This document shows positions 25,241-32,482 of a DNA stretch of 33,785 bases, piece after piece (position 1 is the first letter of the stretch; each line of letters begins with the position of its first letter). The DNA comes from a virus: positions 1 through 33,785 of the IMG/VR virus record IMGVR_UViG_3300048597_000627; one strand, written 5' to 3'. The notes under the pieces were generated by a model. That model searched no databases. It was given only the letters and a program-made list of their open reading frames with translations, and was not told the DNA's origin. The position numbers and the translations under genes are program-made.

Positions 25241-27307
25241 TCAGCGGTCAAGCCAGTTGGCGCCGCGCCCTGCCAGCCAATCGTCGGCAGGCGGGGCGGG
25301 CGTGGGTTTCGGTGTTTCGGGCGGCGCGGTGCCGGCGGACGGGGTTGCCCCCGCGATCATGTCGAACAGGCTGGGCTCGACCGCTTCGGGCGGCAGGCCA
25401 CGCTCGCGGGCCAGGGCGCGCCACTGGTCGGGTGTCATCGACGACAGGCCGAGATATTCGGCCAGCGCCATGTTGTAGACGCGGCAATCGAGGAAGTGAT
25501 TGTCGCGAAGCTTTTGCCACTTCTTGCCGGCGGGCCGGCCCCGGACCGTGATATCGGCCAGATGCTCGCCGGTGAGCTGGAGGAAGTACTCCTCATCCAG
25601 CCAGCCGCCAAAATGGCAATAACCCGCCGGAGCGGAGGCGACATCCGCGCCATCACGCACTTTGCCGAGGTCGAGATAGACGCTCGACTTGAGCGGCCAG
25701 GTGCCGACAGCCCAGAGGCGGACGCCCTGCTTGATCTTGCGGCCTGCCAGATCGATGTCGACCAGCTTCGGCGTGCCGATGGCTGGCAATCCCCAGCCGT
25801 CCTGTCCCTTGATGGCCAGCACCAAATCGCGGCCCGTGATCGGGTGGGCGCGCTGGACCGAGCGGGCGAAAGCATAGACCACCGGGGCGCGATAGCCCGA
25901 ATCGATGGCCAGCGCGTCCACGCGGCGGGTGCGGCCGAAGGCGTCGGGCCATTCGGCATCGAGCACCTCGCGCCGGAGCCGCTCGAAGACCGGGGCCGAG
26001 GCGCTTTCAGTATCGCCGCCGAGATATCCGGCCTCGACCACGTAAGAGCGGCGGTCTGCCGTCCAGGCGATGACCTCATACCAGACACCGCGCATCTGCA
26101 CGTCGGCAGCGGCGGTGAGCAGCAGCCCGTCGGGCGGAATGTGGCCGCGCTTGAGGTGCGCCTCGCGGCGATCCATCAGGCGCTTGTGGTCCGGCGCATC
26201 GCCCCGGAAGGCGTAGGGCCGGCCGAGCACGAGGTTCACATAACCCTTGCGGGCAATCTCTGAGCCGCGGCTCTTCAGTTCGTCTTCGGCAATGGCGCCG
26301 TAGGACATCATCAGCGAGATGAAGGCGTCCAGGTGAAAGCCCGGGTGCCGATCTCCGCCGGGCGCGGTGGCAATCCACTGCGCGCCGGCATCGGGCCGGA
26401 TCATCGCGACCCGCTCGGCCTCTGAAATCAGATGGCCGCAGCCCTCGCATTCATAGCCAGAGGCGTGCGGCCGGGACACGTTGACCCGGAACCGCTCCGG
26501 CTGGTGGTGCTGCACCTGACCGCATTCGGGGCAGGCAAAATGCCAGAATCGCTGGTCAGACCGGCGAAAGCTGCGATCAATCCGGCAATGGCCGGCTGCG
26601 TCGCCCGTTTCGTCGCCGCTGTCGGTCTCCGGCGTGCTGATCTCGAGGATCTTCCAGTCGCCTGTGCGCCTGAAGGCGGTGAATCGGCCGAAGTAGAGAT
26701 CCTCGGGGTCTTGCGCGCCGGGGATGAGCTGCCACTTGGACAACTCGTCCTTGACGCCCTTTTTGGCAGTCTTGGACGACAGGTCCATGACCGAATTGGC
26801 GTTTGCCAGCCAGAGGCGACCGCCACGGACGAAAACCTTTTCATAGGTCGTCGAGCCCGAGCCGGAGCGCGAGGTCTGCGGCACGATCATCACCTGGCCA
26901 GCCTTGCGGTGCCAGGCATCAATCAGCGGCTGCAGCTTGGCGCTGTTCGTGTCCTTGAGCGCATCGATGCCGGGGACGGCATAGAGCATGTTGGCCGGCT
27001 CGCGCTCGGCGCAATAGAGCGTCCAGCCCAGCGCGGCGATCGATGCGCCGGTCTGCTGGCTCTTGCGAACCGTGACGAGGTTGGCCGGGTGATCCTCCGA
27101 CAGACAGTCAAGGATCTCGGTGAGATAGGGCGCGCCGGACGCCGACCAGAGCTGGCCAGCGGCGGGGCCATCCACCAGCACGATGTTTTGCGCCATCCAG
27201 TCGGAGACGCGCATCGGGACGGGCGGGCGAAGCGACTGCTCGAGCGTCTCCGAAGCCAGGCGCAGCGCGCCGGGGTGGCCTTCGGCGAGGCGGGGGCTGG
27301 TCTGCAT
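25241..27307 (-). CDS. Terminase large subunit, lambda GpA family
   Basis: ATPase/nuclease that cuts concatemeric phage DNA and drives it into the prohead. From the chosen start at 27307 (688 aa) there is a Walker A-like RKSQQTGAS (81-89), an acidic KDELSKW (186-192) in the Walker B area and a coupling-type ISTPE (223-227). A zinc-finger-like pair CPEC (259-262) and CEGC (287-290), common in GpA terminases, follows. The C-terminal half (about 350-620) should hold the nuclease domain. The C-terminus is Pro-rich. The frame is open further upstream but that extension is Arg/Pro-rich and overlaps the small-terminase coding region. Starting at 27307 leaves a 25-nt gap. Confidence 0.93.
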   Translation of the reverse strand: MQTSPRLAEGHPGALRLASETLEQSLRPPVPMRVSDWMAQNIVLVDGPAAGQLWSASGAPYLTEILDCLSEDHPANLVTVRKSQQTGASIAALGWTLYCAEREPANMLYAVPGIDALKDTNSAKLQPLIDAWHRKAGQVMIVPQTSRSGSGSTTYEKVFVRGGRLWLANANSVMDLSSKTAKKGVKDELSKWQLIPGAQDPEDLYFGRFTAFRRTGDWKILEISTPETDSGDETGDAAGHCRIDRSFRRSDQRFWHFACPECGQVQHHQPERFRVNVSRPHASGYECEGCGHLISEAERVAMIRPDAGAQWIATAPGGDRHPGFHLDAFISLMMSYGAIAEDELKSRGSEIARKGYVNLVLGRPYAFRGDAPDHKRLMDRREAHLKRGHIPPDGLLLTAAADVQMRGVWYEVIAWTADRRSYVVEAGYLGGDTESASAPVFERLRREVLDAEWPDAFGRTRRVDALAIDSGYRAPVVYAFARSVQRAHPITGRDLVLAIKGQDGWGLPAIGTPKLVDIDLAGRKIKQGVRLWAVGTWPLKSSVYLDLGKVRDGADVASAPAGYCHFGGWLDEEYFLQLTGEHLADITVRGRPAGKKWQKLRDNHFLDCRVYNMALAEYLGLSSMTPDQWRALARERGLPPEAVEPSLFDMIAGATPSAGTAPPETPKPTPAPPADDWLAGRGANWLDR

Positions 27308-28229: not shown

Positions 28230-28255
28230 TACTCACAAGCAACTGCCGCAGTCAA
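28226..28255 (-). promoter_or_regulatory. Candidate sigma-70-type promoter ahead of the late (terminase) operon
   Basis: On the minus strand TTGACT (28250-28255, 5/6 to the -35 consensus) is followed after 18 bp by TATGTT (28226-28231, 4/6 to the -10 consensus). The -35 overlaps the stop codon of the 310-aa gene. Transcription from here would run through the hairpin and candidate cos region into the small terminase gene. This is a match by eye. Alphaproteobacterial promoters tolerate variation and no transcript data are available. Confidence 0.4.
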
Positions 28256-29184
28256 GCCCCTTGTTCGTGCGCCGGTCGCCATTGCCCAAGGGGAGCGCCC
28301 GCCCTTGGCCGCTGCGCCGTCCGCTCGTGCGGCAGGGCCTCGCCCCCGCTGATGATGCGGCATTCCGGCAGCCCCTCCACCCATGGCCGCATCGGCAGCG
28401 CCGATGGCATGATCCGCACCCCGTGCTCCAGCGCAGGCCCGGCGCAATCCTCAAGGATCACATCGAGCGCCGCCCGCCACAGCTGCCATTCCGCCCTTGC
28501 CAGCGCCACGTGCAGCGGGTCAGGGCTGAGCCTGTGCTTGCGATAGGCGTCGGGATAAGGCCGCCCGCCCTTCGCGTTGTAGCCGTCGACCTCGACCATC
28601 TCTGTCGACGTCACCTCGCCGGCCTCATTCCATTGCGCAGGCCGCGACACCATCCGGAACCAGCGCGGCTTGCCGTGGTCCTTGATCACATCCGCCGTCA
28701 CCTCGCCGCATTCCCATCCGCGCGGCATTGGCAGCACGGCGCGCTTGACCATCAGCGCCGAGAGCGCGCCGGTCATGCGGGCCATCGTGCCAGCCCGGTG
28801 GCGCGCATCGGCCTTCGCCTGTTGCAAAAGCGGGCCGGCAATCGGGTCGCTGGCCAGATCGTCCATATCCTCGAAGGCGTCCCATTCGGCAAAGCCCGCC
28901 GGCTCGATGGCGTCGAGGCCGAGCATTGCCTCGCCGATCAGCAGCGCCGCCGGGTGTGGTGTCAGCCGGTCGAGCGCGGCAAGGTCAGGCACCACGCCAT
29001 AGCGGTTGGCGCGAGCATCGATCGCCCCGCCCATCGAGCCGGCCATGGCGGCGGCCAGCGCGGGGCTTGAGCAGCCATTCGGGGCCCCTGCCCTCACCAT
29101 CTTGCCCAGCGGGTCCGCGCCCACCTTCGGCAGCTCATCCCGCACCGCCCAGGCCACAGCCGCCTCGATCGTCATGGTTTTCAT
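28252..29184 (-). CDS. Conserved-looking phage protein of unknown function (310 aa)
   Basis: I cannot assign a family. The start at 29184 is chosen because an AAGGGG Shine-Dalgarno-like sequence lies 9 nt upstream. A longer in-frame form to 29265 would only translate the 9-bp repeats (LRGLR, TLATLAK). The protein is soluble and helix-rich to about residue 130, then has a Trp-rich middle (GWECGEV, KPRWFRMVSRPAQW) and a basic, Trp-rich segment (about 230-255) before an Arg/Pro-rich tail. No catalytic motif is evident. It sits between the replication genes with their repeat array and the cos/terminase region, so a role late in replication or in the switch to packaging is possible. This rests only on position. 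Confidence 0.75.
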   Translation of the reverse strand: MKTMTIEAAVAWAVRDELPKVGADPLGKMVRAGAPNGCSSPALAAAMAGSMGGAIDARANRYGVVPDLAALDRLTPHPAALLIGEAMLGLDAIEPAGFAEWDAFEDMDDLASDPIAGPLLQQAKADARHRAGTMARMTGALSALMVKRAVLPMPRGWECGEVTADVIKDHGKPRWFRMVSRPAQWNEAGEVTSTEMVEVDGYNAKGGRPYPDAYRKHRLSPDPLHVALARAEWQLWRAALDVILEDCAGPALEHGVRIMPSALPMRPWVEGLPECRIISGGEALPHERTAQRPRAGAPLGQWRPAHEQGA

Positions 29185-29200: not shown

Positions 29201-29496
29201 GCGAGGGTTGCGAGGGTTGTGCGAGGGTCCACCCTCAACCCTCGCAATCCCGTTTTCCGTTTCAATTCAGAGACTTAACAACCATAAAACAGTAGTTTGC
29301 GAGGGTTGCGAGGGTTGTCCTATTAGGGAAGTTTAGAAAAGCACTCCCCGGCTCCCCCGCACCCCCTCTTTCACATACGCGTATACACGCGCGACCCTCG
29401 CAACCCTCGCAAGATGCCGGCAAGTCTCTGATAAGACTTGAGAAAACACCAGCGAGGGTTTCCCCTCAACCCTCGCGCAACCCTCGCAACCCTCGC
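29201..29496. repeat. Array of twelve GCGAGGGTT repeats in both orientations; candidate origin or operator
   Basis: The intergenic region 29185-29594 carries a 9-bp unit GCGAGGGTT. Plus-oriented copies begin at 29201, 29210, 29221 (last base changed), 29299, 29308 and 29452. Minus-oriented copies (AACCCTCGC) begin at 29237, 29393 (first base changed), 29402, 29468, 29479 and 29488. Many copies are in direct tandem. Two opposed pairs can form hairpins: 29221-29245 (8-bp arms) and 29452-29476 (perfect 9-bp arms, 7-nt loop). An AT-rich stretch (about 29251-29300) and a 10-bp palindrome ATACGCGTAT (29375-29384) lie among them. The arrangement resembles iteron origins with an unwinding element, next to the replication helicase. 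A regulatory operator for the downstream gene is the alternative, since the first copies end 17 bp before its ATG. Confidence 0.85.
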
Positions 29497-29594: not shown

Positions 29595-31385
29595 TCAATC
29601 GGGCTCGCGGGTTTCGTGCAGCTCGGGCAGTCCGTCGAGATCGACAGCGATGTCGCTCCACACGCGCACCCGCCCGTCGACCCGCGTGAAGCCCTTCTGC
29701 TTCATGGCAAGGCTGAAAGCTTTCTCCGACCACGGGCGGATGGCATTGCCGGCGCAGAACCGCTTGAACGAGTGGTGCAACAGCCTCGCCTGGATGTCGC
29801 TGCCCGTCTGGGGCCTCACGCACTCGCGGATGAAGGCGCCCACGGGATCGAGGTCCTGCCTGTGTTGCTCAGTCAGTGCCGTCACGGCGGGCGGGTCGCG
29901 CAGGCCCTCTTCAAGGAACATCAGCGCGCCCTGCACCAGCCAGTTGAGCAGGCCCGCCCCTTCGGCGAGGAAGCCGGCGACCACCTCTGGCATGTCGCGC
30001 CGCTCGGCCTCGCTCACCTGCACAGGCCAGTGCACGAACTTCATGCGCCGCCAGATGCCCTTGTCCAGCCCGCCGATCTCCGGCAGCTGGTTGCCGCTCA
30101 TGAAGGGGATAAACTCCGGCACAAGGTCGAAGAAGCCGTGGTTGAGGTGCCGGACAGGCATCGGCTCGCCGCCCGTCATGGTCTTGACAAGGCCTTCCTT
30201 CAGCGGTGCCCCGCGCGGCAGCTCGGCAATGGCCACGATGCGCTTTCCTTGCAGCCGCGCAAAGTCAGGCGTGGCCTGGTCGCCGCGCGCCGTGTCGAGC
30301 CCCGCGATGGATTCCGGCTTCAGCCGCCCGGCATAGTCGCCAAAGGCCTGCGCCAGCGTCTCCATGAACACCGATTTGCCGTTCTGGCCTTCGCCATAGA
30401 GGAAGATCAGCGCCTGCGTCTTGGCCCCGCCCAGCATGCCCGCCCCGCTCGCCACCTGCAGGAAGCGGCGCTGCGCCGGGTCTGGCTGGAACCGTTCGAG
30501 GAAATCCGCCCAGCGGTCACAGCGGGCTGCGGGCTCGTGGGCCAAATGGCATATCTTGGCGATGCGATCGGCCTGCGCGTGGGGCTCCAGCCGCACGGAG
30601 GATCTGATCACGCGCTTCATCACCGGCATCTCGCCCCCCGCGTCGGGGTCTTCGGTTTCAGTCACCGTGCGGGTGAACACCAGCGTGCCATTGGCCACGT
30701 TGAAGCGGTAGGGGTGGGCGTCGATCTCGGCCGGCGCCACAGCGCAGCGCGGCTTGGCCTGCGCCAGCATCGAGGTGGTGCGCGCCCGGTTGCCGGATGA
30801 GACGCCAAAGTCTCGGCGGCTCTTGCGCCGCTTGCCCAGCCGTGCCTCGGCCTCGGCGGCCAGACGCAGCGTGGCCTTGTCCTCGTCGGAAAGGTCCGCC
30901 TTGCCGGCCAGCGCCTCGCCGCGGGCGATCAGCGCGCCGTCATTTGGCGAGGGGTGCAGCGCGTGCGCCTCGAGCTTGATGCGGCGCGCCGTCTCCTGCG
31001 CGCGCAGCTCGGCCAGATGCTCGCCGTCCTCCATGCGCCAGTGCGAGCCCGTCCAGCCATGCCAGCCGATCTCGCGCACGAACAGCAGCTCGTTGCCAAA
31101 ATGCTTGAGCAGCCGGGCGGCGTTGTCGGTGTCGTTCTGGTCCAGCAGCGAGCATGCGGCCACGATCGCCGGATCCGCCGCAATCGGCTCATCGCGGCCC
31201 ACATCTCCAGTATCCGCCTCGCCCTCGTCCGGCACGAAGCCGTCGTCGAGGCCATCATCCTCAACATCCGCGTAGGCAGGTTCTGCGACGGGCTGGGCCG
31301 GGCCGGCCATCAGCGCGCGCAGGCGCTGCGCTTCGGCGTCCGGTGCGAGGTCTTGGTCGGCTTGGGGCTGCTGGTCAGGTGTCAT
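29595..31385 (-). CDS. D5/P4-type superfamily 3 replicative helicase
   Basis: Predicted ATP-driven DNA helicase that would load at the phage origin and unwind it for the prim-pol protein. The N-terminal 70 residues are acidic and probably disordered. Residues about 280-460 form the SF3 core: Walker A GEGQNGKS (331-338), Walker B-like IVAIAELP ending at 390, sensor-like MSGNQLPEI (429-437) and candidate arginine fingers in GIWRRMKF (R446/R447). The C-terminus resembles the winged-helix tail of the phage/plasmid primase P4-family C-terminal domain. It starts in an ATGA overlap with prim-pol. Directly after its stop comes a 410-bp region packed with 9-bp repeats, a plausible binding site for this protein (inference). 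Confidence 0.92.
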   Translation of the reverse strand: MTPDQQPQADQDLAPDAEAQRLRALMAGPAQPVAEPAYADVEDDGLDDGFVPDEGEADTGDVGRDEPIAADPAIVAACSLLDQNDTDNAARLLKHFGNELLFVREIGWHGWTGSHWRMEDGEHLAELRAQETARRIKLEAHALHPSPNDGALIARGEALAGKADLSDEDKATLRLAAEAEARLGKRRKSRRDFGVSSGNRARTTSMLAQAKPRCAVAPAEIDAHPYRFNVANGTLVFTRTVTETEDPDAGGEMPVMKRVIRSSVRLEPHAQADRIAKICHLAHEPAARCDRWADFLERFQPDPAQRRFLQVASGAGMLGGAKTQALIFLYGEGQNGKSVFMETLAQAFGDYAGRLKPESIAGLDTARGDQATPDFARLQGKRIVAIAELPRGAPLKEGLVKTMTGGEPMPVRHLNHGFFDLVPEFIPFMSGNQLPEIGGLDKGIWRRMKFVHWPVQVSEAERRDMPEVVAGFLAEGAGLLNWLVQGALMFLEEGLRDPPAVTALTEQHRQDLDPVGAFIRECVRPQTGSDIQARLLHHSFKRFCAGNAIRPWSEKAFSLAMKQKGFTRVDGRVRVWSDIAVDLDGLPELHETREPD

Positions 31386-32482
31386 GATCGTGTCCCAAGT
31401 CCGGCCAGTCGGGCGGCAAGTTCGCCAAGATGTGAGTGCGCGGCAGCGGCGCTCAGCCCGTTCTTGAGCTCGCGGCGCACGCTCGCCGGCCCGTCATCCT
31501 GCAGCAGCCCGTTCTGTGCGCAGGCCTTTTCCAGCTCACCGAGCACATGCGATTCCGTCGCCACGCGAAGCACCACGAAGCGCCCGGCCGATGAGGCCGC
31601 AGCAAAGGCCGCCGTGCCCCGCTGCCCTTTGCCCGCCTTGGCCAGCTCCGATGCGATGTTGCGGATCGCCGTTTCGGCATAGCGGGCGGCGCGGCCGTCA
31701 ACGCCGGCGATGGGCTGGGATGCGCCGCGCGGCAGCGGGGCCGGCGCAGGCAGCGCGGGTTCAATCAGCCGCGCGATCAGCGCCAGCAGGCGTGGCGGCA
31801 GCGGCGCGAAGGTGTCGGGCTTGATGATCCACGCATACGAGCGGCCGTCATCCATCAGGGAGGGCGGCGCGATGACATAGCCGCCCTCGCCCCGCACATC
31901 GATGTTGGCGAGCCGGGGCGAGGCCTGGTTGGCCTTGATCATGCGGCGGAACAGTCCGTTGCGATTTCCAATCGCCCCGTCGAAGGCCACAGCCCGTGAT
32001 GCAGCCTCGGCAGCAACAGCCGCCAGCGCCGAGGCAGTCGGGTAACGGAACCAGACATGAAAGCCGCCGGAGCGGGTGCGGCTCAGCCCCGGCTCCAGCA
32101 CTTCGCCGGTTTCGCGGTCAGCCCATTCGAGACCGCCGCACCATTGGCCCAGCGCCGCCAGCATGGCCTCGGGCTCGTGCTCCTTGGGGTCCAGGTCCAC
32201 CACCACGGTGCGCGAGCGCAGCCCTGTCGGCAGGCCGATCAGCGCGCGCGGCCAGCGCTTCCACCAGCCATGAATCGCAGCCTCATCGCACGAAGCCAGC
32301 CAGTGCCCGCCATCGCGCGCATCCGGAGTGCTCTCGCCCGGCAGGTAAGGCGCCTTGGCCTTCTCCCCGCCTTCGCGGCACGGAAACACGGGCCGCCCCT
32401 GCCGTGCGTGCTCCAGCGCATGGTCGACGGCAGCGCGGCTCTTCCCCCGTTCAACGGCCTGGCTGGGCTCGCGGGTGATCAT
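31382..32482 (-). CDS. Bifunctional DNA primase/polymerase (prim-pol) domain protein
   Basis: Archaeo-eukaryotic-type primase/polymerase expected to make primers for phage DNA replication. The N-terminal prim-pol fold shows the metal-binding DLD at residues 96-98, the SGGFH motif at 138-142, and a later NIDVRGEGGYVIAPPS stretch typical of motif III in this family. Residues after about 240 are Ala/Pro-rich, followed by a helical tail. In many prophages and plasmids this domain is fused to a D5/SF3 helicase. Here the helicase is a separate gene that begins in an ATGA overlap with this stop, so the two products are probably made together and act as a complex. The start ATG overlaps the methyltransferase stop. 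Confidence 0.9.
   Translation of the reverse strand: MITREPSQAVERGKSRAAVDHALEHARQGRPVFPCREGGEKAKAPYLPGESTPDARDGGHWLASCDEAAIHGWWKRWPRALIGLPTGLRSRTVVVDLDPKEHEPEAMLAALGQWCGGLEWADRETGEVLEPGLSRTRSGGFHVWFRYPTASALAAVAAEAASRAVAFDGAIGNRNGLFRRMIKANQASPRLANIDVRGEGGYVIAPPSLMDDGRSYAWIIKPDTFAPLPPRLLALIARLIEPALPAPAPLPRGASQPIAGVDGRAARYAETAIRNIASELAKAGKGQRGTAAFAAASSAGRFVVLRVATESHVLGELEKACAQNGLLQDDGPASVRRELKNGLSAAAAHSHLGELAARLAGLGTRS

Follow-up and report, generated by a model that had tools for sequence, protein, structure and literature searches.

A mirror-symmetric array of twelve iterons beside a D5-type helicase gene is a probable phage replication origin

The viral record IMGVR_UViG_3300048597_000627 (33,785 nucleotides, analysed at full length and called the window below) raises the question of what a dense cluster of 9-bp repeats does directly behind a helicase gene, and which protein would read it. 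We found that the 296-bp array at 29201-29496 holds twelve GCGAGGGTT sites, six on each strand, of which ten are exact and two carry one mismatch (GCGAGGGTC). This agrees with the initial annotation, which had counted twelve 9-bp copies, six per strand, over the same interval. By composition, only about 0.004 exact copies would be expected in 296 bp. When one mismatch was allowed, the whole window contained 28 sites compared with 11.8 (sd 3.7) in shuffled sequences, and no 300-bp stretch of the window outside the array held more than two of them. The AT-rich stretch and the 10-bp palindrome described earlier within the array are also both real: G+C content is 34% at 29246-29298, as against 67.7% for the window, and the palindrome ATACGCGTAT is present at 29375-29384. 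The palindrome was not kept as such in relatives.

A feature missed by the earlier description is the dyad symmetry of the array as a whole. Each half is laid out as three forward sites and one reverse site, about 42 bp of spacer, and two further forward sites, and the same order is mirrored on the other side (Table 1). The outer site pairs 29201/29496, 29210/29487, 29221/29476 and 29245/29452 share one exact common centre at 29348.5, and the two inner pairs have a common centre at 29354.5; the 6-bp offset between the two centres reflects the 12 bp by which the left spacer exceeds the right one. Since the array forms one large dyad with mirrored halves, the AT-rich stretch is the left spacer and not the centre. 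The centre itself has 57% G+C compared with 68% for the window, and the spacers are the most AT-rich parts of the array.

Table 1. Positions of the repeat sites, the parts of the array and the neighbouring genes in the window
Feature	Position	Strand	Basis or remark
Forward sites of the array	29201, 29210, 29221 (GCGAGGGTC), 29299, 29308, 29452	+	At most one mismatch to GCGAGGGTT
Reverse sites of the array	29237, 29393 (GCGAGGGTC), 29402, 29468, 29479, 29488	-	At most one mismatch to GCGAGGGTT
Left outer cluster (+ 29201, + 29210, + 29221 (GCGAGGGTC), - 29237)	29201..29245	.	Last two sites form an opposed pair
Left AT-rich spacer, 53 bp	29246..29298	.	One helical turn above most relatives (41-44 bp)
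Left IHF-like site ATTCAGAGACTTA	29265..29277	+	7/9 to WATCAANNNNTTR; distance to outer cluster kept
Left inner tandem pair GCGAGGGTTGCGAGGGTT	29299..29316	+	Site scan and comparison with relatives
Centre, 76 bp, with CCTATTAGG, ATACGCGTAT and a C-run	29317..29392	.	Presumed unwinding region
Right inner tandem pair, first site GCGAGGGTC	29393..29410	-	Mirrors 29299-29316
Right spacer, 41 bp	29411..29451	.	
Right IHF-like site TATCAGAGACTTG	29421..29433	-	8/9 to WATCAANNNNTTR; mirrors left IHF-like position
Right outer cluster (+ 29452, - 29468, - 29479, - 29488)	29452..29496	.	Mirrors left cluster
310-aa protein, phrog_9306	28252..29184	-	Start 16 bp from the array
D5/SF3 helicase, 596 aa, proposed initiator	29595..31385	-	Pfam D5_N 2.8e-17; phrog_1156 1.1e-122
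D5 C-terminal winged helix (residues ~514-585, with R572 and R574 in the wing), proposed iteron reader	29631..29846	-	AlphaFold2 model and covariation
Prim-pol primase, 366 aa, same replication module as D5	31382..32482	-	Pfam Prim-Pol 2.2e-29

The gene order on the minus strand is prim-pol, D5/SF3 helicase, array, 310-aa protein, small and large terminase subunits and portal, with the GpA-type terminase and its Nu1-like small subunit lying 3′ of the 310-aa gene. Terminase and portal genes are present in the window, so the element appears to be a phage and not a PICI satellite. The edge of the array at 29496 is 98 bp past the stop of the D5 gene (29595), and similar placement was seen in relatives. 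The 596-aa protein matched D5-type hexameric helicases in both profile and fold searches; D5-type helicases of known structure are hexamers, and dodecamers have been solved for one of them. In the AlphaFold2 model of D5 (mean pLDDT 89.8), we read the C-terminal arrangement of helices and strands as a winged helix. The predicted fold of the 310-aa protein gave no match in the PDB, and an Rfam search of the window returned no RNA family.

The array was then compared with its relatives. Scanning viral contigs with the 18-mer GCGAGGGTTGCGAGGGTT yielded 60 stretches, and in most of them the array directly adjoins the 3′ end of a D5 relative (27-90% identity). Many carry a homologue of the 310-aa protein across the array from D5, and this protein is conserved beside many arrays. 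Five of the 60 (L005, L020, L044, L055 and L062) are not full arrays but short matches or matches in coding sequence. Exact and near DNA comparison of the array with named phage records gave no match. A stricter inner-core pattern, applied to 84,980 genomes, found eight matches, all alphaproteobacterial and mostly Hyphomicrobiales, with D5 beside the array in five (L064, L068-L071). A full GCGAGGGTT array with only a D5 fragment was present in L066 and L067, and with no detected D5 gene in L065; these three may be decayed prophages in which the array outlived the D5 gene. Wherever the hosts of array-bearing phages and prophages are named, they are alphaproteobacterial.

Among 32 nonredundant arrays, measured from the inner pair, the left outer sites lie at -86, -77 and -66 (+) and at about -51 (-); the right outer sites lie at +51 (+) and at +66, +77 and +86 (-). 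These offsets are mirrored and fixed within 1-2 bp, the left side of the window having 12 bp added. The median number of sites per half is six, which is typical and not universal. Conserved repeat spacing beside D5 genes of related prophages had been named in the initial annotation as a check of its origin proposal, and such spacing was found. Its refuting case, in which unrelated host DNA would be full of the repeats, was not observed: all eight genome matches were alphaproteobacterial, and D5 adjoined the array in five of them.

In both half spacers the IHF consensus WATCAANNNNTTR follows an A/T tract and lies at an equal, mirrored offset. The mean best score (of 9) was 7.47 on one side compared with 6.36 (sd 0.11) in shuffled sequences, and 7.16 compared with 5.87 (sd 0.12) on the other; the two copies in the window score 7 and 8. 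Spacer lengths across arrays are mostly 40-44 bp, and the few exceptions, 29-31 or 51-53 bp, are about one helical turn off, so that both the consensus and the helical phasing of an IHF-type site are found at the level of sequence. The span of the inner pairs plus the centre varies freely from 103 to 136 bp. Because the spacers shift by whole turns and the length of the centre is free, all the sites of one half, outer as well as inner, would belong to one folded complex, and the two halves would not be rigidly phased to each other. Arrays of the GCGA(T/C)AGTT type (L125, L108 and L113) keep the paired mirrored sites but have no opposed sites and no clear IHF match; in L125 one side is 12 bp longer, as in the window. 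Since GCGATAGTT-class arrays have neither opposed sites nor a clear IHF match, the IHF feature is not universal.

Two binders had been proposed for the repeat, D5 and the 310-aa protein, and covariation between repeat and protein separates them. Iteron distance correlated with the distance between D5 C-terminal regions (rank correlation 0.444), and the correlation was still 0.385 (p 0.001) once the ATPase domain had been taken into account; the correlation with the ATPase domain after the C-terminus was -0.01. At the 21 loci carrying both proteins, iteron distance correlated at -0.11 (p 0.73) with the 310-aa protein, as against 0.465 (p 0.011) with the D5 C-terminus. The D5 positions that best discriminated GCGAGGGTT from other repeats (505 compared) were R574, R572 and E554, and the top five were all C-terminal. 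R574 was present in 97% of GCGAGGGTT loci compared with 9% of loci with other repeats, and R572 in 100% compared with 22%. A D5 tree built without the C-terminal region shows at least six changes of repeat class. R572 went with the repeat class in 5-6 of 6 independent pairs under most pairings and never against it; R574 alone gave 3-4 agreeing pairs and none against, which is below significance. Most GCGA(T/C)AGTT relatives kept R572 and lost R574, and CACAGGGTT and ATGTCGGGT relatives lost R572 and kept R574. Exceptions to covariation at a single wing position are L116, L123, L131 and L132, the last three of which misfit a simple R572/R574 code. Altogether, the comparison favours the D5 protein as the reader of the iterons. 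The D5 half of the earlier proposal is thus supported by covariation with the C-terminus, and the other half is not: the 310-aa protein was rejected as the reader, as it showed no covariation and no fold match, and the array persists where no homologue of it was found, as on the plasmid described below.

The position of the array between a helicase gene and terminase genes also suggests a packaging (cos) site, in which the small terminase would bind the repeats on IHF-bent DNA. Phage lambda offers a model, as its cosB likewise joins repeats and an IHF site near the terminase genes; cosB is one-sided and read by the small terminase, unlike the strict mirror symmetry of the present array. A further point for this reading is that in Rhodobacter phage RcapNL only about 40 bp separate the annotated cohesive end from the D5-linked array (L073:6800-7096, L077:1-26), so that origin and cos may be neighbours in some phages. 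Against it stand the covariation of the repeat with the C-terminal domain of D5 and the occurrence of related 9-bp arrays in phages both with and without a GpA terminase.

Further evidence came from the 46-kb Methylobacterium currus plasmid NZ_CP089299, on which a D5 gene is followed by an array of the same geometry. Neither a GpA terminase nor a phrog_9306 homologue was found on this plasmid, and positive controls for both matched in other records; a check of three Rep families and the gene list found no RepC, Rep3 or RPA initiator. The genes in its table, which is known to be incomplete, include those for ParA, CRISPR and resistance but none annotated as phage structural genes. The array and D5 thus appear to be the replicon of this plasmid, as judged from its gene content. 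The persistence of the array without a GpA terminase, a detected standard Rep gene or a 310-aa homologue makes an origin likelier than a cos site, and we regard packaging as a very improbable function. Just past the putative plasmid origin lie a type I-E CRISPR-Cas set and an apparent CRISPR repeat array (L079:6191-18619).

Alternatively, a phage regulator could act on the repeats as an operator or control region of the 310-aa gene, the first site being 16 bp ahead of its start, or the array could terminate D5 transcription, since the opposed pair at 29452-29476 resembles a terminator of the D5 transcript. No sigma-70-like promoter was found, however, and a T tail is missing from the left opposed pair. 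An operator would need fewer than twelve mirrored and helically phased sites, and the array also occurs where no 310-aa homologue was detected and does not covary with that protein. We therefore give regulation hardly any weight as the main function; control of the 310-aa gene, which had also been suggested, is unneeded to explain the array and may be a side effect at most. The opposed pair at 29452-29476 is followed by TGGTGTTTTC and could double as a D5 terminator.

A structural origin, at which a hairpin or cruciform and not the repeat sequence is recognised, has been proposed for pRN1 and BIP-1, and PMC4234260 describes an essential stem-loop 3′ of the prim-pol/SF3 gene of pRN1. In keeping with such a structure, the DNA fold computed for the array strand is very strong (z -13.6), and the left and right spacers of the same phage are slightly more alike than chance, a likeness that a cruciform would also predict. 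The strong fold, however, arises because identical sites are inverted, and the spacer arms share 15.6 of 41 positions compared with 14.7 by chance, which is too weak for arm covariation to serve as proof of a cruciform. The direct-repeat phase, the IHF consensus and the winged-helix covariation point instead to reading as duplex DNA, and recognition of a hairpin seems to us distinctly improbable.

Based on the above results, we consider it highly probable that the array is a phage origin used by D5. The initial annotation had suggested an iteron origin from the neighbourhood of prim-pol and helicase genes, and this suggestion has gained support, as the array follows D5 across divergent phages and onto a plasmid and the repeat covaries with the D5 C-terminus. 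We propose that the 9-bp iterons would be read by the C-terminal winged helix of D5, and that host IHF would bind each spacer and fold it so that the four outer sites are brought back onto the two inner sites. Six D5 subunits could then assemble on each half as a hexamer, a reading based on site count and geometry, so that the two halves would hold a double hexamer. These mirror-image hexamers would flank the 76-bp centre, open it and depart in opposite directions, with primers made by the adjacent prim-pol. GC skew in the window changes sign near 28 kb, in a direction opposite to that of a simple leading-strand origin, a comparison confounded by transcription. More tentatively, and with somewhat less than an even chance of being right, the array may represent a new class of origin: a double-hexamer template with six sites per half, split four plus two by an IHF-bent and phased spacer, in which folding by IHF would suffice to position six SF3 subunits in each ring, with rings that are independent of each other and a repeat that has been rewired repeatedly together with two wing arginines.

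We compared this arrangement with known origins, as far as the accessible parts of the sources describe them. In the literature (PMC7581432, PMC6092414), D5-type or SF3 initiators have their origin 3′ of the initiator gene, and the C-terminal domain of the initiator reads it. For PICIs, two iteron sets around an AT-rich region are located 3′ of rep (PMC6092414), and according to PMC7581432 SaPI Rep binds its origin as a pair of hexamers. As in the proposed origin described here, the SaPI/PICI Rep and Pri-Rep systems have a self-loading helicase with the origin immediately 3′ of its gene (PMC6092414, PMC7581432), two sets of short iterons around a presumed melting region, and iteron sequences that differ between elements. 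Their iterons are read by a C-terminal domain, and covariation suggests the same for D5 here. In contrast, the present array has twelve 9-bp sites in mirrored and phased six-site halves, an IHF-like site in each spacer and a separate prim-pol, and it occurs in whole phages, prophages and one plasmid. In the accessible parts of PMC6092414 and PMC7581432, neither IHF sites nor mirrored 4+2 halves are described for SaPI/PICI origins.

Other systems resemble the array in part. SCCmec Cch2 is likewise a D5_N-type helicase whose putative origin has repeats downstream of the gene, bound by its C-terminal domain, but only three 5-nt iterons are reported in PMC7581432. The alpha protein of phage P4, as summarised in PMC4234260, shares with D5 an SF3 helicase and a C-terminal winged helix, which in P4 binds origin repeats; P4 alpha is fused to a Toprim-type primase, whereas the present phage has a separate prim-pol. 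The putative origins of pRN1 (ORF904) and of BIP-1/BPP-1 also combine prim-pol, SF3 helicase and winged helix with a location 3′ of the gene, and a stem-loop without iterons was proposed for them (PMC4234260), compared with twelve iterons in the array. The array shares its place, and probably its reader, with the PICI and pRN1 origins, and the mirrored six-site halves with IHF-like sites set it apart. No description of a mirrored six-site, IHF-bearing array was found in the literature searched, which was mostly open-access and did not include the main SaPI origin papers, and a text search of papers for the letters of the repeat gave no match.

It is a long-standing question how loader-independent hexameric helicases come to sit as opposed pairs at origins. 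The array would offer a compact natural template for studying it: the sites in each half can be counted, the bend would have a set position, the centre is free in length, and altered repeats with matching wing residues occur in dozens of natural variants. It may also provide a simple origin signature for phages, prophages and phage-plasmids with D5 helicases, including BPP-1, for which another origin was proposed.

To see how far such arrays extend, 80 D5 loci were fetched by protein alone and searched de novo. A 9-bp core with at least five sites in tandem and inverted orientation was detected in 40 of them; the other 40 had no 9-bp core by this detector, and 20 rounds of shuffling of each of the 80 loci produced no such core. 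The repeats, often other than GCGAGGGTT, include GCGATAGTT, GTGACAGTT, TGCAGGGTT, ATGTCGGGT, GGGAAGCTA and AGGGAGGAT. Among named phages, related cores are present in AmM-1 (AGGGAGGCT), RcapNL (AGGGACGCA) and BPP-1 (TTGCCTCGT, inner core only). The core in the gap between bbp28 and bbp27 of BPP-1 is a candidate origin, about 470 bp beyond the stem-loop proposed in PMC4234260, the accessible text of which does not describe this 2+2 core of 9-bp sites. In the Bordetella phage BPP-1 record AY029185, at about 26607-26710 (L166:4826-4929), two tandem TTGCCTCGT copies and two inverted copies stand 73 bp apart around TACGTGTACATGAG.
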